In this document: one piece after another, positions 54,518 to 61,552 of the stretch
How the letters are laid out: every line of letters starts with the position of its first letter
Position numbering within the stretch: the stretch's first letter is position 1
Origin: Catalinimonas alkaloidigena
GTDB taxonomy: Bacteria > Bacteroidota > Bacteroidia > Cytophagales > Flexibacteraceae
NCBI RefSeq assembly: GCF_900100765.1
Contig: NZ_FNFO01000003.1
Location: 186,001-250,000, forward strand
Direction of reading: 5' to 3'
Length of the DNA stretch: 64,000 nt
Program-made: the position numbers and the translations under genes
Notes under the pieces: generated by a model
What the model was told of the DNA's origin: nothing
The model's database searches: none
What the model saw: the letters and a program-made list of their open reading frames with translations, nothing else

Positions 54518-55405
54518 TTACAGCGGTTTGTTTTCGAGCATTCGGATCAGTTCGTCGATCTGCGACAGGAGCTGCACGTTGGCGGGCAGGTCGAGCGGTT
54601 GCGCCAGTACCTGATAGCCGGTCAGCAGCACTTTCGTCTGCGGAAACGCTTCGCCGAGGCGCGTGACGTACCGCTGAATGCCGTCGGCATCGGGCAGGGT
54701 GGTGATGATGGAAAACAGGAAGTCGGGCTCGTGCATCCGGCAAGCGCCGACCAGATCGTCGAACGGCAGACTCTGCCCCAGATAAACCACGCGGTGGTGC
54801 CGGGAGCGAATCAGGTAATTGGCAAACAACAGACTGAGCTCGTGCAACTCGCCCTCGGGCAAAAACAGCACGAAGGTTTTGACCGGCCCCTGGCGCGGCA
54901 CCACCTGTGCGTCGATCGCGACGATGAGCTTCTGGCGAATCAGGTTGGTGATGAAATGCTCGTGAGCGGGATTGATGGCCCCCGTCTGCCAGAGGACGCC
55001 GATTTTGTGCAGAAAGGGATAGACGACGTTGAGCATCGTTTTTTCAAACCCGAACTGCAGGATGTTGGTCGACATGATGCGCTCGAAGCGGTCTTCGTCC
55101 AGGTCGATCATGCTGATGGTCAGCGACTGTACCTGGTCGATGTAGCCTGTTGCCTGCCGCGCCAGTTGCAGCACTTCCTGTTGCATAGCCTCCGGCGACA
55201 TCTGTGCGATCTTCGAGATCTTGTAGCCGTGGCCGTTCAAGACCGAGATGTTCAGTACCAGTTTCAGGTCCTCGGCATCGTAATAGCGAATGTTGGTATC
55301 CGTCCGTTTGGGACGGATGATGTTGTATCGCTGCTCCCAGATCCGCAGCGTGTGGGCTTTGATGCCCGACAGGTGCTCCAGATCGCGAATCGAATACGTC
55401 CCCAC
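54518..55405 (-). CDS. MerR-family regulator with cobalamin-binding-like domain (LitR/CarH type)
   Basis: 295 residues. N-terminal MerR HTH (MGTYSIRDLEHLSGIKAHTL, RIWEQRYNIIRPKR). Then a helical domain containing W139-x9-E149-H150 (LWQTGAINPAHEHF), the Wx9EH signature of the B12 photoreceptor CarH, and a Rossmann-like domain with EGELHELSLLFANYLI, where H188 sits where CarH has its cobalt-ligating His; the glycine that normally follows three residues later is Ser. Known members repress carotenoid genes in the dark and release on B12 photolysis. It is the last gene of a minus-strand set with crtZ (30 bp apart) and a CruF-like gene, which fits carotenoid control. Confidence 0.85.
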   Translation of the reverse strand: MGTYSIRDLEHLSGIKAHTLRIWEQRYNIIRPKRTDTNIRYYDAEDLKLVLNISVLNGHGYKISKIAQMSPEAMQQEVLQLARQATGYIDQVQSLTISMIDLDEDRFERIMSTNILQFGFEKTMLNVVYPFLHKIGVLWQTGAINPAHEHFITNLIRQKLIVAIDAQVVPRQGPVKTFVLFLPEGELHELSLLFANYLIRSRHHRVVYLGQSLPFDDLVGACRMHEPDFLFSIITTLPDADGIQRYVTRLGEAFPQTKVLLTGYQVLAQPLDLPANVQLLSQIDELIRMLENKPL

Positions 55406-55434
55406 GTGACTGTCGTTTAAGTAGTAGTTGATCG

Positions 55435-55899
55435 TTAAGGTCTTCGGGCCGACCGGGGCGGCTCCTCGTCAAAAACGCTATCGTTCACCCAAAGCAGTCC
55501 GAAGGCTTTGCTGCGGTCGCGGTCGCGCGAACGATGGTGAATTTGATGAGCACGGTACAGACGGTTCAGGAAACGGTTCCCCGAGCGTCCGAACACGTTC
55601 ATGCGACGGTGGATAAACAAGTCGTGCACCAGAAAATAGACGAGACCGTAGAGCGAAATGCCAATCCCAATCCAGAAGCGCACGTCCAAGGTGGCTGCTC
55701 CCAGGATCATCAGCACCACCGCCACACCACCGAAGAAAATCGTGAACACGTCGTTCAGTTCCAGCCAGTGATGACCGGCACCGTGATGCGTCTTATGAAT
55801 GAACCACAACGGTCCATGCATCACGTATTTATGAATGGCCCACGAGGCCACTTCCATCAGACCAAAGCTGAGGAGTACGGTAACAAAAGCAAGCCACAT
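55435..55899 (-). CDS. crtZ: Beta-carotene hydroxylase (CrtZ)
   Basis: 154 residues from the ATG at 55899 (MWLAFVTVLLSFGLMEVASW). Membrane diiron hydroxylase that adds 3-hydroxyl groups to beta-rings, giving zeaxanthin. The histidine clusters are present: H23 and H28 (HKYVMHG), H35-x2-HH (HKTHHG), HDLFIHRR and HQIHHRS. Three to four membrane segments. It lies between the MerR-type regulator and the CruF-like gene on one strand; the last 20 residues are Arg-rich (DEEPPRSARRP). No lycopene cyclase, phytoene synthase or desaturase is in the window. Confidence 0.93.
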   Translation of the reverse strand: MWLAFVTVLLSFGLMEVASWAIHKYVMHGPLWFIHKTHHGAGHHWLELNDVFTIFFGGVAVVLMILGAATLDVRFWIGIGISLYGLVYFLVHDLFIHRRMNVFGRSGNRFLNRLYRAHQIHHRSRDRDRSKAFGLLWVNDSVFDEEPPRSARRP

Positions 55900-56003
55900 A
55901 TCTTTAAAGCTATAACACGCCGCGCTATAAATTGTTTGATTTCCCACGTGTGCGGGCAGGAACTCGACCGGTGGTCAGAACTAGTCGCTTACCGGTAGGC
56001 AGC

Positions 56004-56675
56004 TCACACCCACGCCAGCAACGCATGCCCCAGGAAGAAAGCCGCCTGTACGGCCACCACCACGCGCGCCAGCGGATTCTGTTTTCGGAAGGCGCTACCC
56101 GTAAACACCCCGAACAGCAGCACAGAAACGAGAAACCAGCCGCCGTAATTGCGCCAGGGGACAGCTCCTTCGTGCCAGGCCCAGAAATCGAACCGAATGG
56201 CGACCGGCTCGATTAGCACGTCGAGCAGCACCATGAGTACACTCCCGACCAGCACCAGCCGCCACCGGGGCCAGTTGTACGACGACAGCCAGACGCCGAT
56301 GCTGTACACCAACACGAACCAATTGATACCAATGACGAACGGCACGCCCCACAGTTTAGGTCCCAGCGTAGCCCCGTAGGCATACGCCCCAAACAGCCAG
56401 CCCGTTTGCACCCCAATCAGTTCGGCCACAAAACCGACGAACACCGTCAGCGCCGTAAAGCGTACAAATGCCGCGTTGCGTTCCGGCTGAAAGGCGATGA
56501 GCAGCCCGGCCGTCAGCAGCAGGTTCAGCGGTGTCAGCAGCAGGAACCACGGACGTGACCAAGCCACCTGCATGCCGATCAGGCCAGCCATGTGCGTGGC
56601 CATGAGGAGCGCTACGGCCCCGCCATACAGACCAGAGAGTGTTTTCTGAGGATTTGATGTAGTCAAAAGCGACAT
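56004..56675 (-). CDS. CruF-like carotenoid biosynthesis membrane protein
   Basis: 223 residues from the ATG at 56675. About seven membrane segments. The pattern FVAELIGVQTGWLFGAYAYG, LGPKLWGVPFVIGINWFVLV, VLLDVLIEPVAIRFDFWAWH and VPWRNYGGWFLVS is that of the CruF/CrtC-like carotenoid 1',2'-hydratase family (DUF422). Family members act on acyclic ends of gamma-carotene or related C40/C50 carotenoids. Start is 691 bp from the crtZ stop end; the gene is first of the crt-regulator set. Its exact substrate is not predictable. Confidence 0.88.
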   Translation of the reverse strand: MSLLTTSNPQKTLSGLYGGAVALLMATHMAGLIGMQVAWSRPWFLLLTPLNLLLTAGLLIAFQPERNAAFVRFTALTVFVGFVAELIGVQTGWLFGAYAYGATLGPKLWGVPFVIGINWFVLVYSIGVWLSSYNWPRWRLVLVGSVLMVLLDVLIEPVAIRFDFWAWHEGAVPWRNYGGWFLVSVLLFGVFTGSAFRKQNPLARVVVAVQAAFFLGHALLAWV

Positions 56676-56778
56676 GGTTTTACCAACTCCGCAAAAGCAC
56701 AAATGTTTGGAACCGGACGCCCGGCTAGCAGCGGGGGCCTCTCCCTAAAATCTGACGACGGATTCCCGCCAGATCGCC

Positions 56779-56790: not shown

Positions 56791-57093
56791 ATGATTCTTT
56801 ACAACGTTACGTATAATGTCGACGAAAGCATAGAACAAGAGTGGCTGGCGTGGCTCAAGGCCTCTTACCTGCCGGCGGTTCTGTCCACGGGTCTGTTCCA
56901 CGACTCGGCCGTCTACCTGCTGCACGGCGCCTACGCAAGCGAAGGGGTGACGTACAGCGTACAGCTCTTTGCCGAAAGCTTCGATAAGGTCAACGTGTTT
57001 GAGCAACTGTACGCCGCCCGCTTTCAACAGGAACACGAAGCCCATTTTGGCGGGCAGTTTGTGCAGTTCCAGACCCTGATGGAACGCAAGTAG
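56791..57093 (+). CDS. DUF4286 family protein
   Basis: 100 residues, cytosolic. The DUF4286 pattern is MILYNVTYNVDESIEQEWLA at the start, LHGAYASEGVTYSVQLFAES in the middle, and FGGQFVQFQTLMER at the end; the fold is probably a small alpha/beta barrel-like dimer. No function is known for the family. It ends 2 bp before the convergent nucleotidyltransferase stop, so transcription from the two sides must collide or be ended within coding sequence. Confidence 0.88.
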   Translation: MILYNVTYNVDESIEQEWLAWLKASYLPAVLSTGLFHDSAVYLLHGAYASEGVTYSVQLFAESFDKVNVFEQLYAARFQQEHEAHFGGQFVQFQTLMERK

Positions 57094-58229: not shown

Positions 58230-61193
58230 TTACAGCGTCAGGGCACGGCGCAGCATCGTGGACGGTGTCAGTTGCTTCAGGTGAAGTGTAAACCGGATTT
58301 GTTTGGTCACGTCATCGATGCCTGTCGGGAACCGATCGGCGTAACTGCTACCGGCCAGCGGTACATCGATCGTCAGGATCTCGGGCAGAAGACGCAGCGA
58401 CAAGCCCGTGCCGGTCAGCAAACCGCCGCCGTCGGGGGTGTAACCCACGTCGCCAAAGACACTAATCGGCAGGTAAGGCACATCGACAGCGCCGTTCAGT
58501 GCCACCAATCCTTTGCGGGAATACGCGGAAGTCAGTCCCCGGAATCCCCCCTGGTCGTCGATACGCTGGCGCAGAAATGCCGGGACGGTTTCGGTAACAC
58601 CGCGGCGGTCCAGCAGAATCTGGTCCCCCAGGTAGTCAGTACTGCCGCTCATGCCCAGTCGGAAGCCATTGGTCAGGTTTCGTGCCAACAGGAAGCCTCC
58701 GGCAAAGCCGCGCAGGCGCACCTGGCTTTTCCGCCGGTAGTGAAAGTTCCACTCGGCGGTGGCCGAAAGCAACGCGAAGTCAGCGCCTTTGTTCTGCAGC
58801 TCCCCGCGCAGCTCCCACCGTTCCAGGGCGTTCTGCTGGTGTATCCGGTAAGTCGTGGTCAGGACGTTGTAGCGTTGCCAGCTCTGGCCCGGAATCGGCG
58901 CACCGTCCTGATAGGCGGGCAGTTGCTGCAACCCGAAGCGCATGTTCACCAGGCGCAGGCTCAGTTCCTTCTGCGGCTGCTGCAGGTCCAATCCATCGCC
59001 AAACGCCAACCGCACGTGCGGCTGAGTGCGAATGTAGCCCGCGTAAATGTCGGTCCGGAGAGCCGCATCGATCCGCCCTAACGTGGTGATGGAAGGAACC
59101 TCGCCCGCTACCTGGAACGAGCCGGTCAGTCCCCGCTGCCCTGAACTCCACATCGGCATTACCAAGTAGCGGAGGGGCTTCCGGGGCAAGATGCTGTTGT
59201 AAAAGGCGGCACCGAGCATGACCTTGTCGGTGGCGTTGTAGCCCCCTACGGGGGTGATAAACAGTTGCGTGTAGCGGTTGTCTTCCAGCGTGGGCAACAG
59301 GCGCACCCGGATGGGTTCCACGCGCCGGTCGGTAACCAGCTCGATCGTATTGTTCTGCCGGTTGTACTCGGGCATGTGATGCTCAGGGTCAATCACCAGA
59401 TGCTCCCACCCTTCGTTCGCCAGTTCAATTTTTTGTACGCCCGTAAAACCCGGATACCATTTTGTCTGGACGACCTTGCCGCCCCGCACGGCCGAAACGG
59501 TGATGGGCCCCGCGATGCTTCCTACGTTTTCTACATAAAGCGTTGCCGTCTTCTCGCTCACGGACGAACGGCGCACGGCGTAGTCCAGTTTTTTATCGGT
59601 CTGCAACAGATCGCGAAACAGCCAATCCCAGGTCTCACCCGTCTGTTCTTCGAACAACGCCTGTACATCGGCTGGTTTCGGATGGCGGAACTGCCACGCG
59701 GTTGTGTACTGACGCATCAGTGCATCGTACTTTTCGTTTCCCAGGTACTGGCGGGCGTAGCGAAACGCCAGGGCGGCTTTTGCTTCGGCAAAGGCCTGGT
59801 AATTGCCGGGGAGGTAACCGGCAGCATTCGTCTGTAACGTTTGTTCGGTACCGCCACGCGCAGCCGCGAGGTAGTCGATCTCGTGGCGACGTGCCTGCGG
59901 AAAGGCGTTCAGCCCACTCAGAGCGCCCCACGGTTGCGGCGCAAGGTCGTTCAAGGTCTGGTTCGGATGCCGCTCGGCGAGGTAGCGATCCTGCGCGGCC
60001 GCGGCCAGTCCATCGACCAGCCAGGGCGAAGTGTGTCCGTCAAGCCCGATCATGCCGCCGTACCATTGCCGGGCGACCTGATGCGCCAGCGCGGTCGTAA
60101 CAGCGGCTTCTCGGGTGGCGGCCGGAATGCCCACCAGACCCGGATAGTTGATGGTTCCACTTCGGCGTAGGGGCAACTCGACCATCGCTAGCGAAGGATA
60201 AGCGTATGCACCGTTCCCGACCGAGTAAGTCGTCAGCATCTGTGCGGCTTCGTCGAGAGCATTCTCCCAGGCAAACGCCCGCCGGTTCGTAAACATAGCC
60301 CACGTGTCTACCTTCTGCCCGGATGGCAAAGTGACTTCGCCGTGCCGCACGTTGAAGCGTTTATCGGCTACCCACGCAAAACCATGGGTATGATCGCTGA
60401 CGAATCGAATGGTTTTGGTGGCACCGGCAGAAACGGGCGATTCGTCTTCCAGCGGGAACCGGTCTGTGCGTAGTTTCTGCGTGGAACGCGCCAACAACCA
60501 CGCCCACTCTTCCTCGCTGGTCAGACGCCCCGTGGCAGCAACCACGTAGTTTTTGGGCAAGGTCAATGTGACGTCGGCCGAACCAAATTCCGCATAGCGG
60601 TTGTCTTGCTCCAGGTACGAGCGCTGGTGCCACCCCTGCGCATCGTAGGCAGCCACCTGCGGATACCAATCGGTCAGCTGATAGGCCTGGTCGCGATGGC
60701 CCATCCGCGAAAAATCACCGGGCAGCACCACCCGGAAGGGGGTCTGGAGCACGACGCGCTCGCCGGGTTTCAGCGGAGTGGCCAGGTTTACCTTGACCAG
60801 ATCGGGATGACGGGGTTCGTATTCCCACTTCAGGGGCTGTTCTCCCACACGGAAATCCAGCGCCTCCATCCATCCCAGTTCTTCGGGGCGGGCGTACCAG
60901 AACTCCTGCCGACCGAGGGCCAGTTGCTGGCTGGCAAAAGGCGTGGTTCGCCCCTGGTAGGCGTTCGGCCAGACTTCTATCCACAGAAACATAAGCGTCT
61001 GCGGCGAATGGTTCACGTATTCGATGGTCGCCTCGGCGGTGAGGAGATGCTTTTGATCGTCGAGCGTCGCGCTGATCCGGTAATTCGCTTCCTGTTGCCA
61101 GGTACGCTCGGGCGCCTCGGTGGCCTGCGCTGCACTTCCTACCAAACAACCGATCACCAGACCGTACCACGGGGCGGAGGTAAACCAACTCAT
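58230..61193 (-). CDS. M1-peptidase-like protein with destroyed zinc site and C-terminal beta-barrel-like region
   Basis: 987 residues from the ATG at 61193, which begins a signal peptide (WYGLVIGCLVGSAAQA). Residues 30-420 are M1-like: the N-terminal sandwich (ATLDDQKHLLTAEATIEYVN), an ELPL-x9-PGL segment in place of the GxMEN motif, and ALAHQVARQWYGGMIGLDGH, where HEXXH-AHQW should stand. Only the first His is kept: Glu is Gln and the second His is Arg (codons 60069-60083). The downstream NEGL site is VDGL. So zinc binding and catalysis should be lost. Residues from about 610 (RVEPIRVRLLPTLEDNRYTQ; FHYRRKSQVRLRGFAGGFLL) look like an outer-membrane barrel. The N-terminal half probably faces outside or the periplasm as a binding module. 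Confidence 0.8.
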   Translation of the reverse strand: MSWFTSAPWYGLVIGCLVGSAAQATEAPERTWQQEANYRISATLDDQKHLLTAEATIEYVNHSPQTLMFLWIEVWPNAYQGRTTPFASQQLALGRQEFWYARPEELGWMEALDFRVGEQPLKWEYEPRHPDLVKVNLATPLKPGERVVLQTPFRVVLPGDFSRMGHRDQAYQLTDWYPQVAAYDAQGWHQRSYLEQDNRYAEFGSADVTLTLPKNYVVAATGRLTSEEEWAWLLARSTQKLRTDRFPLEDESPVSAGATKTIRFVSDHTHGFAWVADKRFNVRHGEVTLPSGQKVDTWAMFTNRRAFAWENALDEAAQMLTTYSVGNGAYAYPSLAMVELPLRRSGTINYPGLVGIPAATREAAVTTALAHQVARQWYGGMIGLDGHTSPWLVDGLAAAAQDRYLAERHPNQTLNDLAPQPWGALSGLNAFPQARRHEIDYLAAARGGTEQTLQTNAAGYLPGNYQAFAEAKAALAFRYARQYLGNEKYDALMRQYTTAWQFRHPKPADVQALFEEQTGETWDWLFRDLLQTDKKLDYAVRRSSVSEKTATLYVENVGSIAGPITVSAVRGGKVVQTKWYPGFTGVQKIELANEGWEHLVIDPEHHMPEYNRQNNTIELVTDRRVEPIRVRLLPTLEDNRYTQLFITPVGGYNATDKVMLGAAFYNSILPRKPLRYLVMPMWSSGQRGLTGSFQVAGEVPSITTLGRIDAALRTDIYAGYIRTQPHVRLAFGDGLDLQQPQKELSLRLVNMRFGLQQLPAYQDGAPIPGQSWQRYNVLTTTYRIHQQNALERWELRGELQNKGADFALLSATAEWNFHYRRKSQVRLRGFAGGFLLARNLTNGFRLGMSGSTDYLGDQILLDRRGVTETVPAFLRQRIDDQGGFRGLTSAYSRKGLVALNGAVDVPYLPISVFGDVGYTPDGGGLLTGTGLSLRLLPEILTIDVPLAGSSYADRFPTGIDDVTKQIRFTLHLKQLTPSTMLRRALTL

Positions 61194-61552
61194 TAGACTA
61201 CATATTGTTACAATCACAAAGAAAGGTGGATCTCCGCTGATTTGCCCTGCAAAATTCTGTCTTCAGAACACTTTGTAAGGAAAGGCTCCATTTCCTGTCC
61301 CTAACTCTGTGAAGCTAAACGGGTTACCTGCTCCAACTGGTGGCCGAGGGAGCACATGAGTAGCAAGCCGCTTCACGCCTTTGTCCAACTGTACTGTTCC
61401 GCAGCGAGTCCTGATAACAATTGCTTAACAGTAGGATAATATTCATTTAAGCAGTCCCCCTGAAAGGCAATGTACCTTTGCGGCGAGTTTAGGGGGTCGT
61501 ATAAAAATTGCTGCCTCCAACCGTAAAAGCACTGCAACACACTTACAAATTC
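61194..61552. other. Intergenic region with a -7 element, no gene
   Basis: About 360 bp, AT-rich, separating the M1-like gene and the TonB receptor, which are divergent. TACCTTTG (61473-61480) on the plus strand is 72 bp before the receptor ATG. I see no structured RNA. Confidence 0.5.
61473..61480 (+). promoter_or_regulatory. -7 element TACCTTTG of the third TonB receptor
   Basis: Full match to TAnnTTTG, 72 bp before the ATG; followed by CGGCGA like the element at 48178-48185 (CGGCAG). No TTG at -33. Confidence 0.5.

Follow-up and report, generated by a model that had tools for sequence, protein, structure and literature searches.

We analysed a 64,000-nucleotide stretch of the Catalinimonas alkaloidigena genome (contig NZ_FNFO01000003.1, positions 186,001 to 250,000 of the forward strand; hereafter the window, whose own numbering is used throughout) and in it one minus-strand gene that encodes an M1 peptidase-like part joined to a predicted outer-membrane barrel. 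A first, sequence-only reading had placed this gene at 58230-61193; its open reading frame stands, whereas the start is moved to a GTG at 61217, which gives a protein of 995 amino acids (the in-frame ATG at 61193, residue 9, is the alternative start and would give 987). The frame is uninterrupted across the 995 codons, with three-periodic G+C content. The gene and its parts, with the evidence for each in parentheses, are:

58230..61217, minus strand: putative M1-like pseudopeptidase gene with C-terminal Omp85-like barrel, whole (995 amino acids, GTG start)
61110..61193, minus strand: candidate ATG start and signal-like hydrophobic stretch, residues 9-36 (sequence; AlphaFold helix)
60558..61103, minus strand: M1 N-terminal domain, residues 39-220 (AlphaFold model, VIA)
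60597..60671, minus strand: N-domain stretch 183-207 with seven replacements, Q183D, K187Q, P188V, V190A, G205D, E206N and F207R (alignment)
59583..60557, minus strand: M1 catalytic (thermolysin-like) domain, residues 221-545 (Pfam, AlphaFold model, VIA)
60144..60158, minus strand: GAMEN-type exopeptidase motif site, GTINY against the GMEYP typical of the family (M356I, E357N) (alignment)
60069..60083, minus strand: HEXXH site, here HQVAR, residues 379-383 (E380Q, H383R; H379 kept) (sequence, alignment)
60012..60017, minus strand: third zinc-ligand site, VD in place of DE (D401V, E402D) (alignment)
59784..59786, minus strand: catalytic Tyr position, now Glu (Y478E) (alignment)
59313..59582, minus strand: beta-strand-rich linker domain (M1 domain III-like) preceding the barrel, residues 546-635 (AlphaFold model, VIA)
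58233..59312, minus strand: 16-stranded Omp85-like outer-membrane barrel, residues 636-995 (model, Foldseek, VIA)
58512..58682, minus strand: 57-residue loop that joins strands 11 and 12, at the L6 position (model, alignment)
58443..58457, minus strand: FGDVG on strand 13, residues 921-925, Omp85 (F/G)xDxG signature (model, alignment)

The AlphaFold model, built from 55 aligned sequences, has a mean predicted local distance difference test score (pLDDT) of 88.8 and a predicted template modelling score of 0.87, and the rows listed by a VIA structure search with it are M1 enzymes (Z 27.9-30.8), among them a two-domain Deinococcus M1 enzyme that covers model residues 32 to about 607 (model numbering is that of the 995-residue protein minus 8). 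At the sequence level the likeness is weak: Peptidase_M1 was the only Pfam match at E up to 1, at 27.0 bits vs. a cut-off of 27.7 (hmmscan), and scored 30.6 bits, above the cut-off, in a whole-genome search; an NCBIfam scan of the protein gave no match. The closest solved relatives by sequence are aminopeptidases N, with E-values of 0.0028 and above, and the first of these, 4naq, also has HQ at the general-base position. The AlphaFold model, VIA and Pfam all assign the fold of peptidase family M1, and the model and VIA matches bear out the sequence-only reading in its claim that this fold is retained. Model residues 10-22 form a helix of low pLDDT, and inspection of residues 9-36 found no Lys or Arg ahead of their hydrophobic part.

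The residues that define an active M1 enzyme are replaced. The zinc site, HEXXH with a downstream Glu, reads HQVAR and VD, and the GAMEN-type Glu and the catalytic Tyr are changed as well (E357N and Y478E). We take the GTINY/GMEYP site to have the GAMEN-type exopeptidase role, position 357 to be the anchor of the substrate's amino end, and position 478 to hold the transition-state Tyr, as in M1 enzymes. The replacements HQVAR (residues 379-383) and VDGL (residues 401-404) had been noticed from the sequence and are confirmed by the alignment; the motif used there for comparison, NEGL, did not hold up, since the full-length homologues displayed have DEG. After the second HEXXH His, these homologues have N where this protein has Q, and the next W is kept. 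Further losses are E357N and Y478E and, in the N-domain, Q183D, K187Q, V190A, G205D and E206N. Of the 201 homologue rows, 200 or 201 agree on each of the residues replaced in 183-207, and many of the N-domain changes are grouped at 183-214, a stretch that, from general knowledge of M1 enzymes, is expected to line the cleft.

We compared six catalytic positions (E357, H379, E380, H383, E402 and Y478) between this protein and its homologues. All 141 distinct homologues have EHEHEY, as do 60 of 60 rows of a further set, whereas this protein has NHQRDE, with 1 of 6 kept. The two sets form 201 homologue rows, a few of them from the same gene, and merging at 99% identity leaves 192 (202 and 193, respectively, with the row of this protein included). 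Omitted from the set of 141 are 19 of 176 loci, weaker M1 relatives throughout, that gave no match at E 1e-60; in these, HEXXH and the third-ligand Glu were seen intact. Of 18 more distant genes from a draw across the phylum (loci L242-L259, 17 genomes), 16 have EHEHEY, one (L258) is gapped where the Tyr would align, and one (L251) is split over frames, with the first His unreadable. There is accordingly no second dead copy among the 201 aligned rows, and the check named in the sequence-only reading, whether homologues have the same changes, came out negative, with 201 of 201 rows intact.

We then asked where along the protein conserved positions are broken (conserved columns at a 90% threshold, active region defined as residues 340-410, rows merged at 99% identity). 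In the active region, 22 of 30 conserved columns are broken, vs. 9 of 31 in the worst other row. In the rest of the catalytic domain 6 of 50 are broken (worst other row 10/50), in the middle 0 of 1 (1/1), and in the barrel 0 of 16 (5/16). Breaks are significantly more frequent in the active region than in the three other larger groups (Fisher p = 6e-9). The 90% threshold and the wider row set were adopted because one region had no usable column at 95%; at that threshold, 10 of 53 N-domain, 26 of 70 catalytic and 21 of 28 active-region columns are broken. The other 192 rows leave 43 columns strictly invariant; this protein breaks 17 of them, whereas other rows break at most 2, of 27-28 in the rows displayed (27-28 rather than 43, as the row of this protein itself sits in their comparison set). 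Against the 45 orthologues from the same order described below, near-invariant columns are kept in 50 of 70 N-terminal, 65 of 105 catalytic and 28 of 33 C-terminal positions. Per-domain branch lengths, computed on the fixed topology of an 82-row tree, give an end branch of 8.1 times the median for the catalytic domain, 3.5 times for the N-domain, 3.2 times for the barrel (the third longest of the 82 rows) and 2.1 times for the middle; for residues 330-410 the value is 10.0, which is presumably the ceiling of the program.

The clustering of the breaks and the intact barrel columns argue against sequencing error as well as against an even decay. An error in sequencing or assembly would have to account for 17 separate strictly invariant columns substituted within an open frame, and we regard its probability as negligible. 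The dense replacements around the site, several of them charged (Y478E, H383R, Q183D, G205D, F207R), could also mean that the cleft has been rebuilt for another chemistry or ligand, for instance with H379, D402 and E478 as a new metal or ligand site, so that it would be changed rather than dead. No new motif was recognised in it, however, and with one such sequence only, a rebuilt cleft is indistinguishable from neutral turnover of a dead one; we consider this explanation quite improbable.

The sequence-only reading had placed an outer-membrane barrel after the M1 part, and the models agree: modelled alone, the last 360 residues form 16 strands (pLDDT 90.7). A Foldseek search with the barrel listed 50 rows, all 50 of them Omp85 proteins or complexes by title, although the matches are modest (TM-scores 0.42-0.50, root-mean-square deviation 7.8-13.2). 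In VIA, 49 of 50 listed rows are Omp85 proteins or complexes by title (Z 14.5-17.6), and the title of the one other, 5ayw, says only 'a membrane complex'. A profile of the barrel found no match among Protein Data Bank sequences at E up to 10. Excerpts of PMC4490367 give (F/G)xDxG as the Omp85 signature of strand 13 and (V/I)RG(Y/F) as the motif at the tip of L6. The first is present here as FGDVG; across the family the D is found in 159 of 195 rows and the G in 157 of 195, and the looser [FYL]xDxG occurs in the strand-13 stretch in 143 of 202 rows. The L6 tip instead reads GGFRG (GGFR at 58539-58550); most of the family has G[GA]F[KR] there. Because the tip lacks (V/I)RG(Y/F), we call the barrel, which has the 16-stranded Omp85 fold by model, Foldseek and VIA, Omp85-like and do not file it as an Omp85 member. 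Pfam scans of this protein and eight homologues recognised the M1 part of the homologues and no barrel family, and in none of the nine a POTRA family; Omp85 subfamilies without any N-terminal extension are described in the excerpted text of PMC4104836.

The N-terminal domains of Omp85 barrels lie in the periplasm. In PlpD, an enzyme-Omp85 fusion, the N-terminal patatin domain, once thought to be secreted, was found to be periplasmic (PMC11116518, in part). By this precedent the M1 part most likely lies in the periplasm. The sequence-only reading had instead proposed a binding protein exposed at the cell surface, and it is generally known that some type V secretion proteins hold passengers outside with a C-terminal barrel. 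The Omp85-type matches and the longest loop at the L6 position (strands 11-12), which imply a periplasmic N-terminus, together with the periplasmic PlpD domain, speak against such a location, and we hold surface exposure to be highly improbable.

Among 389 other genomes drawn from the order of this one, 45 have full-length or near full-length homologues, and 42 of the 45 belong to one family. The homology is collinear over the M1 part and the barrel, with 42 of the 45 order orthologues matching at least residues 39-989 and the others (L041-L043) giving shorter or split matches. A draw from the class gave matches at E 1e-60 or better, some of them barrel-less, in 240 of 395 genomes (own genome included), and in the phylum draw 22 of 296 genomes have a match. 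Family draws around two odd carriers comprised one genome each. Two patterns that avoid the active site (HDFAWFA and W[QK]F[RK]HPxP[EAK]), run against named genomes and followed by alignment, gave at least 594 stretches, with 562 relatives among them, of which the best 80 of 562 were kept. The M1-barrel family is widespread, and the relatives' names place it in the Bacteroidia. This protein clusters with the other carriers of the order in a quick 82-row LG+G4 tree (Shimodaira-Hasegawa-like approximate likelihood ratio test, 97), on the longest branch and with unsure placement; this position would fit vertical descent with many losses. The genome has one copy of this barrel type, as the barrel profile matches this gene alone, and an intact sister copy in the same genome is therefore rejected; seven PF01103 (Omp85) matches lie elsewhere. 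Eleven other M1 matches, which might do peptidase work, were found in the genome (sites seen intact in two, L002 and L003), so that the loss of one activity may be tolerated.

The nearest known systems are each alike in part. The M1 zinc aminopeptidases (Deinococcus radiodurans two-domain M1, tricorn factor F3, LTA4H, PepN, ERAP) have similar N-terminal and catalytic folds and match the sequence around residues 355-530, but retain the zinc ligands, general base, GAMEN-type Glu and catalytic Tyr that are replaced here. Large M1 enzymes carry a helical C-terminal domain where this protein has its barrel, TAF2 is not known to have peptidase activity, and BepA is an M48-type peptidase not known to be fused to a barrel. 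Omp85 proteins (BamA, TamA, Sam50, FhaC) share the 16-stranded barrel, the long L6 and (F/G)xDxG on strand 13; this protein differs from them in having no recognised POTRA, another L6 tip and no barrel-profile match to solved chains. PlpD and other enzyme-Omp85 fusions likewise place a soluble enzyme-type domain ahead of an Omp85-type barrel (PMC11116518, in part), and the 'Metallo' Omp85 subfamily carries PF00149 (PMC4104836, in part), whereas the enzyme domain here is M1. In TFIID, TAF2 holds an aminopeptidase homology domain, with four aminopeptidase subdomains D1-D4, within a structural complex (excerpts of PMC6220335), though it is eukaryotic and nuclear. BepA is a periplasmic Zn-metallopeptidase at BAM with a chaperone-like role in outer-membrane protein assembly, and its protease-dead E137Q form is weakened, with a partial effect kept (PMC8423444, in part). 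By analogy only, BepA itself being an active enzyme, a non-catalytic role of the periplasmic M1 part is plausible.

Taken together, these findings make it fairly probable that the gene encodes a pseudopeptidase specific to its lineage, which belongs to a widespread Bacteroidia M1/Omp85-like family and has a non-catalytic role in the periplasm. In the lineage of this genome, substitutions have hit the zinc site, general base, catalytic Tyr and amino-end-binding Glu as well as residues near them, whereas the barrel and the remainder of the catalytic domain have kept normal conservation. Loss of H383, E402 and E380 would remove the zinc site and the general base, and Y478E and E357N would remove the Tyr and the amino-end anchor, so that the protein is probably inactive and zinc-free and cuts no peptides. 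The folded M1 module could then serve in the periplasm as a docking or holding module on the outer-membrane barrel. From the open frame and the conserved barrel we infer that a non-catalytic role is retained, for which the handling of outer-membrane proteins is the most natural guess; substrate selection, as earlier proposed, is weakened, since the residues expected to hold the amino end of a substrate are changed too, and the binding or chaperone role also proposed there may apply. Such a natural loss of catalysis in an otherwise kept enzyme-barrel fusion could separate a scaffold role from peptide cutting. A bolder version, in which the M1/Omp85-like fusions form an undescribed Bacteroidia enzyme-barrel family whose essential job needs no proteolysis and the protein here is a non-cutting periplasmic holder serving the barrel, strikes us as rather doubtful.

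Several observations weigh against the pseudopeptidase reading. The dead form is a single sequence, and the loss of catalysis may therefore be young. No full-length match was found in 10 other genomes of its own family, where the best match covers residues 33-549 (E 2.9e-34); the best identity to any relative found is 39%, and a whole-protein scan of genome contigs, which may omit near records, gave no closer relative. Without a close relative, purifying selection on the dead form can only be inferred. Constraint outside the site is not normal everywhere: in the N-domain 16 of 63 conserved columns are broken, above every other row (up to 10/63), and its end branch is the longest of the 82 rows. 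The codon-usage correlation with the rest is 0.787 (17 window genes tested), the lowest among the long genes (0.85-0.97 in the others of at least 370 codons; 0.784 in a 232-codon CruF-like gene), and the second-position G+C content, 0.459, is the highest of nine genes; both are compatible with weak expression or decay. No common neighbour ties the gene to a pathway (nine window genes against 86 homologue loci, tblastn E 1e-8), and the partial effect kept by BepA E137Q can be read the other way as well.

Some of these observations would also suit a gene on its way out, in which catalysis was lost first and the rest is still recognisable but free of selection: the end branch is the longest in the tree (1.75 vs. 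a median of 0.47), the N-domain is broken, codon usage is atypical, and 0 of 10 other family genomes have a full-length match. Long unselected drift, however, would scatter breaks and create stops, whereas 995 codons are open although the nearest relative found is only 39% identical, and the breaks in the barrel and the rest of the catalytic domain are within the range of other rows. We therefore consider decay unlikely.

Enzyme-Omp85 fusions (PlpD, 'Metallo' subfamily) are already known, as is, in principle, an M1 fold used without catalysis (TAF2). The M1/Omp85-like family itself seems undescribed in the open-licence literature searched, in which we found no account of such a fusion (subscription papers and preprints were outside its scope). 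The main texts of PMC4104836 and PMC12611786 do not contain the string 'peptidase', and in PMC13067283 and PMC12045153 it refers to signal peptidases only. The finding thus draws attention to a widespread family that combines a peptidase fold with an Omp85-like barrel.

A common operon was rejected, as the window genes tested other than the M1-barrel gene are absent beside the homologues (nine genes, 86 loci), the exceptions being two weak matches of a TonB-receptor gene at 61508 and one of a small reading frame at 56791-57093. Homologues with an intact site, which the sequence-only reading had named, together with a sequencing error at 60069-60083, as a sign against it if they lay at this locus, do exist, but without common neighbours. 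Clustering of the neighbours at 77 loci likewise showed that they are only partly common. In 17 of the 77 loci the intact fusion is followed, at -39 to 279 bases downstream and in the same orientation, by a calcineurin-like phosphoesterase family gene. The one member scanned (L129 9934-10725, 263 amino acids) has PF00149, the domain that a published Omp85 subfamily also carries (PMC4104836, in part). In 11 of the 77 loci, several of them from Hymenobacter or Rufibacter, the next gene on the strand of the fusion, at no more than 283 bases, is of pyrophosphatase type (e.g., L102 9849-10601, PF00719 in the one scanned).

Among the relatives, L248, L249, L250 and L254 (also L259) are 524-539 amino acids long; their sites are intact, and they lack an in-frame barrel match. 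Two such copies stand in tandem in one genome, and the L248 match continues beyond a TAA. A second set of M1 relatives, L044-L052 (1034-1170 amino acids, intact sites), matches this protein to residue 582 at most. The homologue in L174, from the record of a Sphingomonadales metagenome-assembled genome, is nested among Crocinitomicaceae and Flavobacteriales rows and is probably on a mis-binned contig. In the genome studied here, very long frames (1229-1238 amino acids; contigs C18 29057-35218 and C3 541506) hold three further M1 matches, two of which share a contig at a distance of about 6 kb. Within the window, 54518-56702 on the minus strand holds a MerR/B12-binding (CarH-like) regulator that adjoins fatty-acid-hydroxylase-family and CruF-like carotenoid genes, possibly a light-controlled carotenoid cluster.

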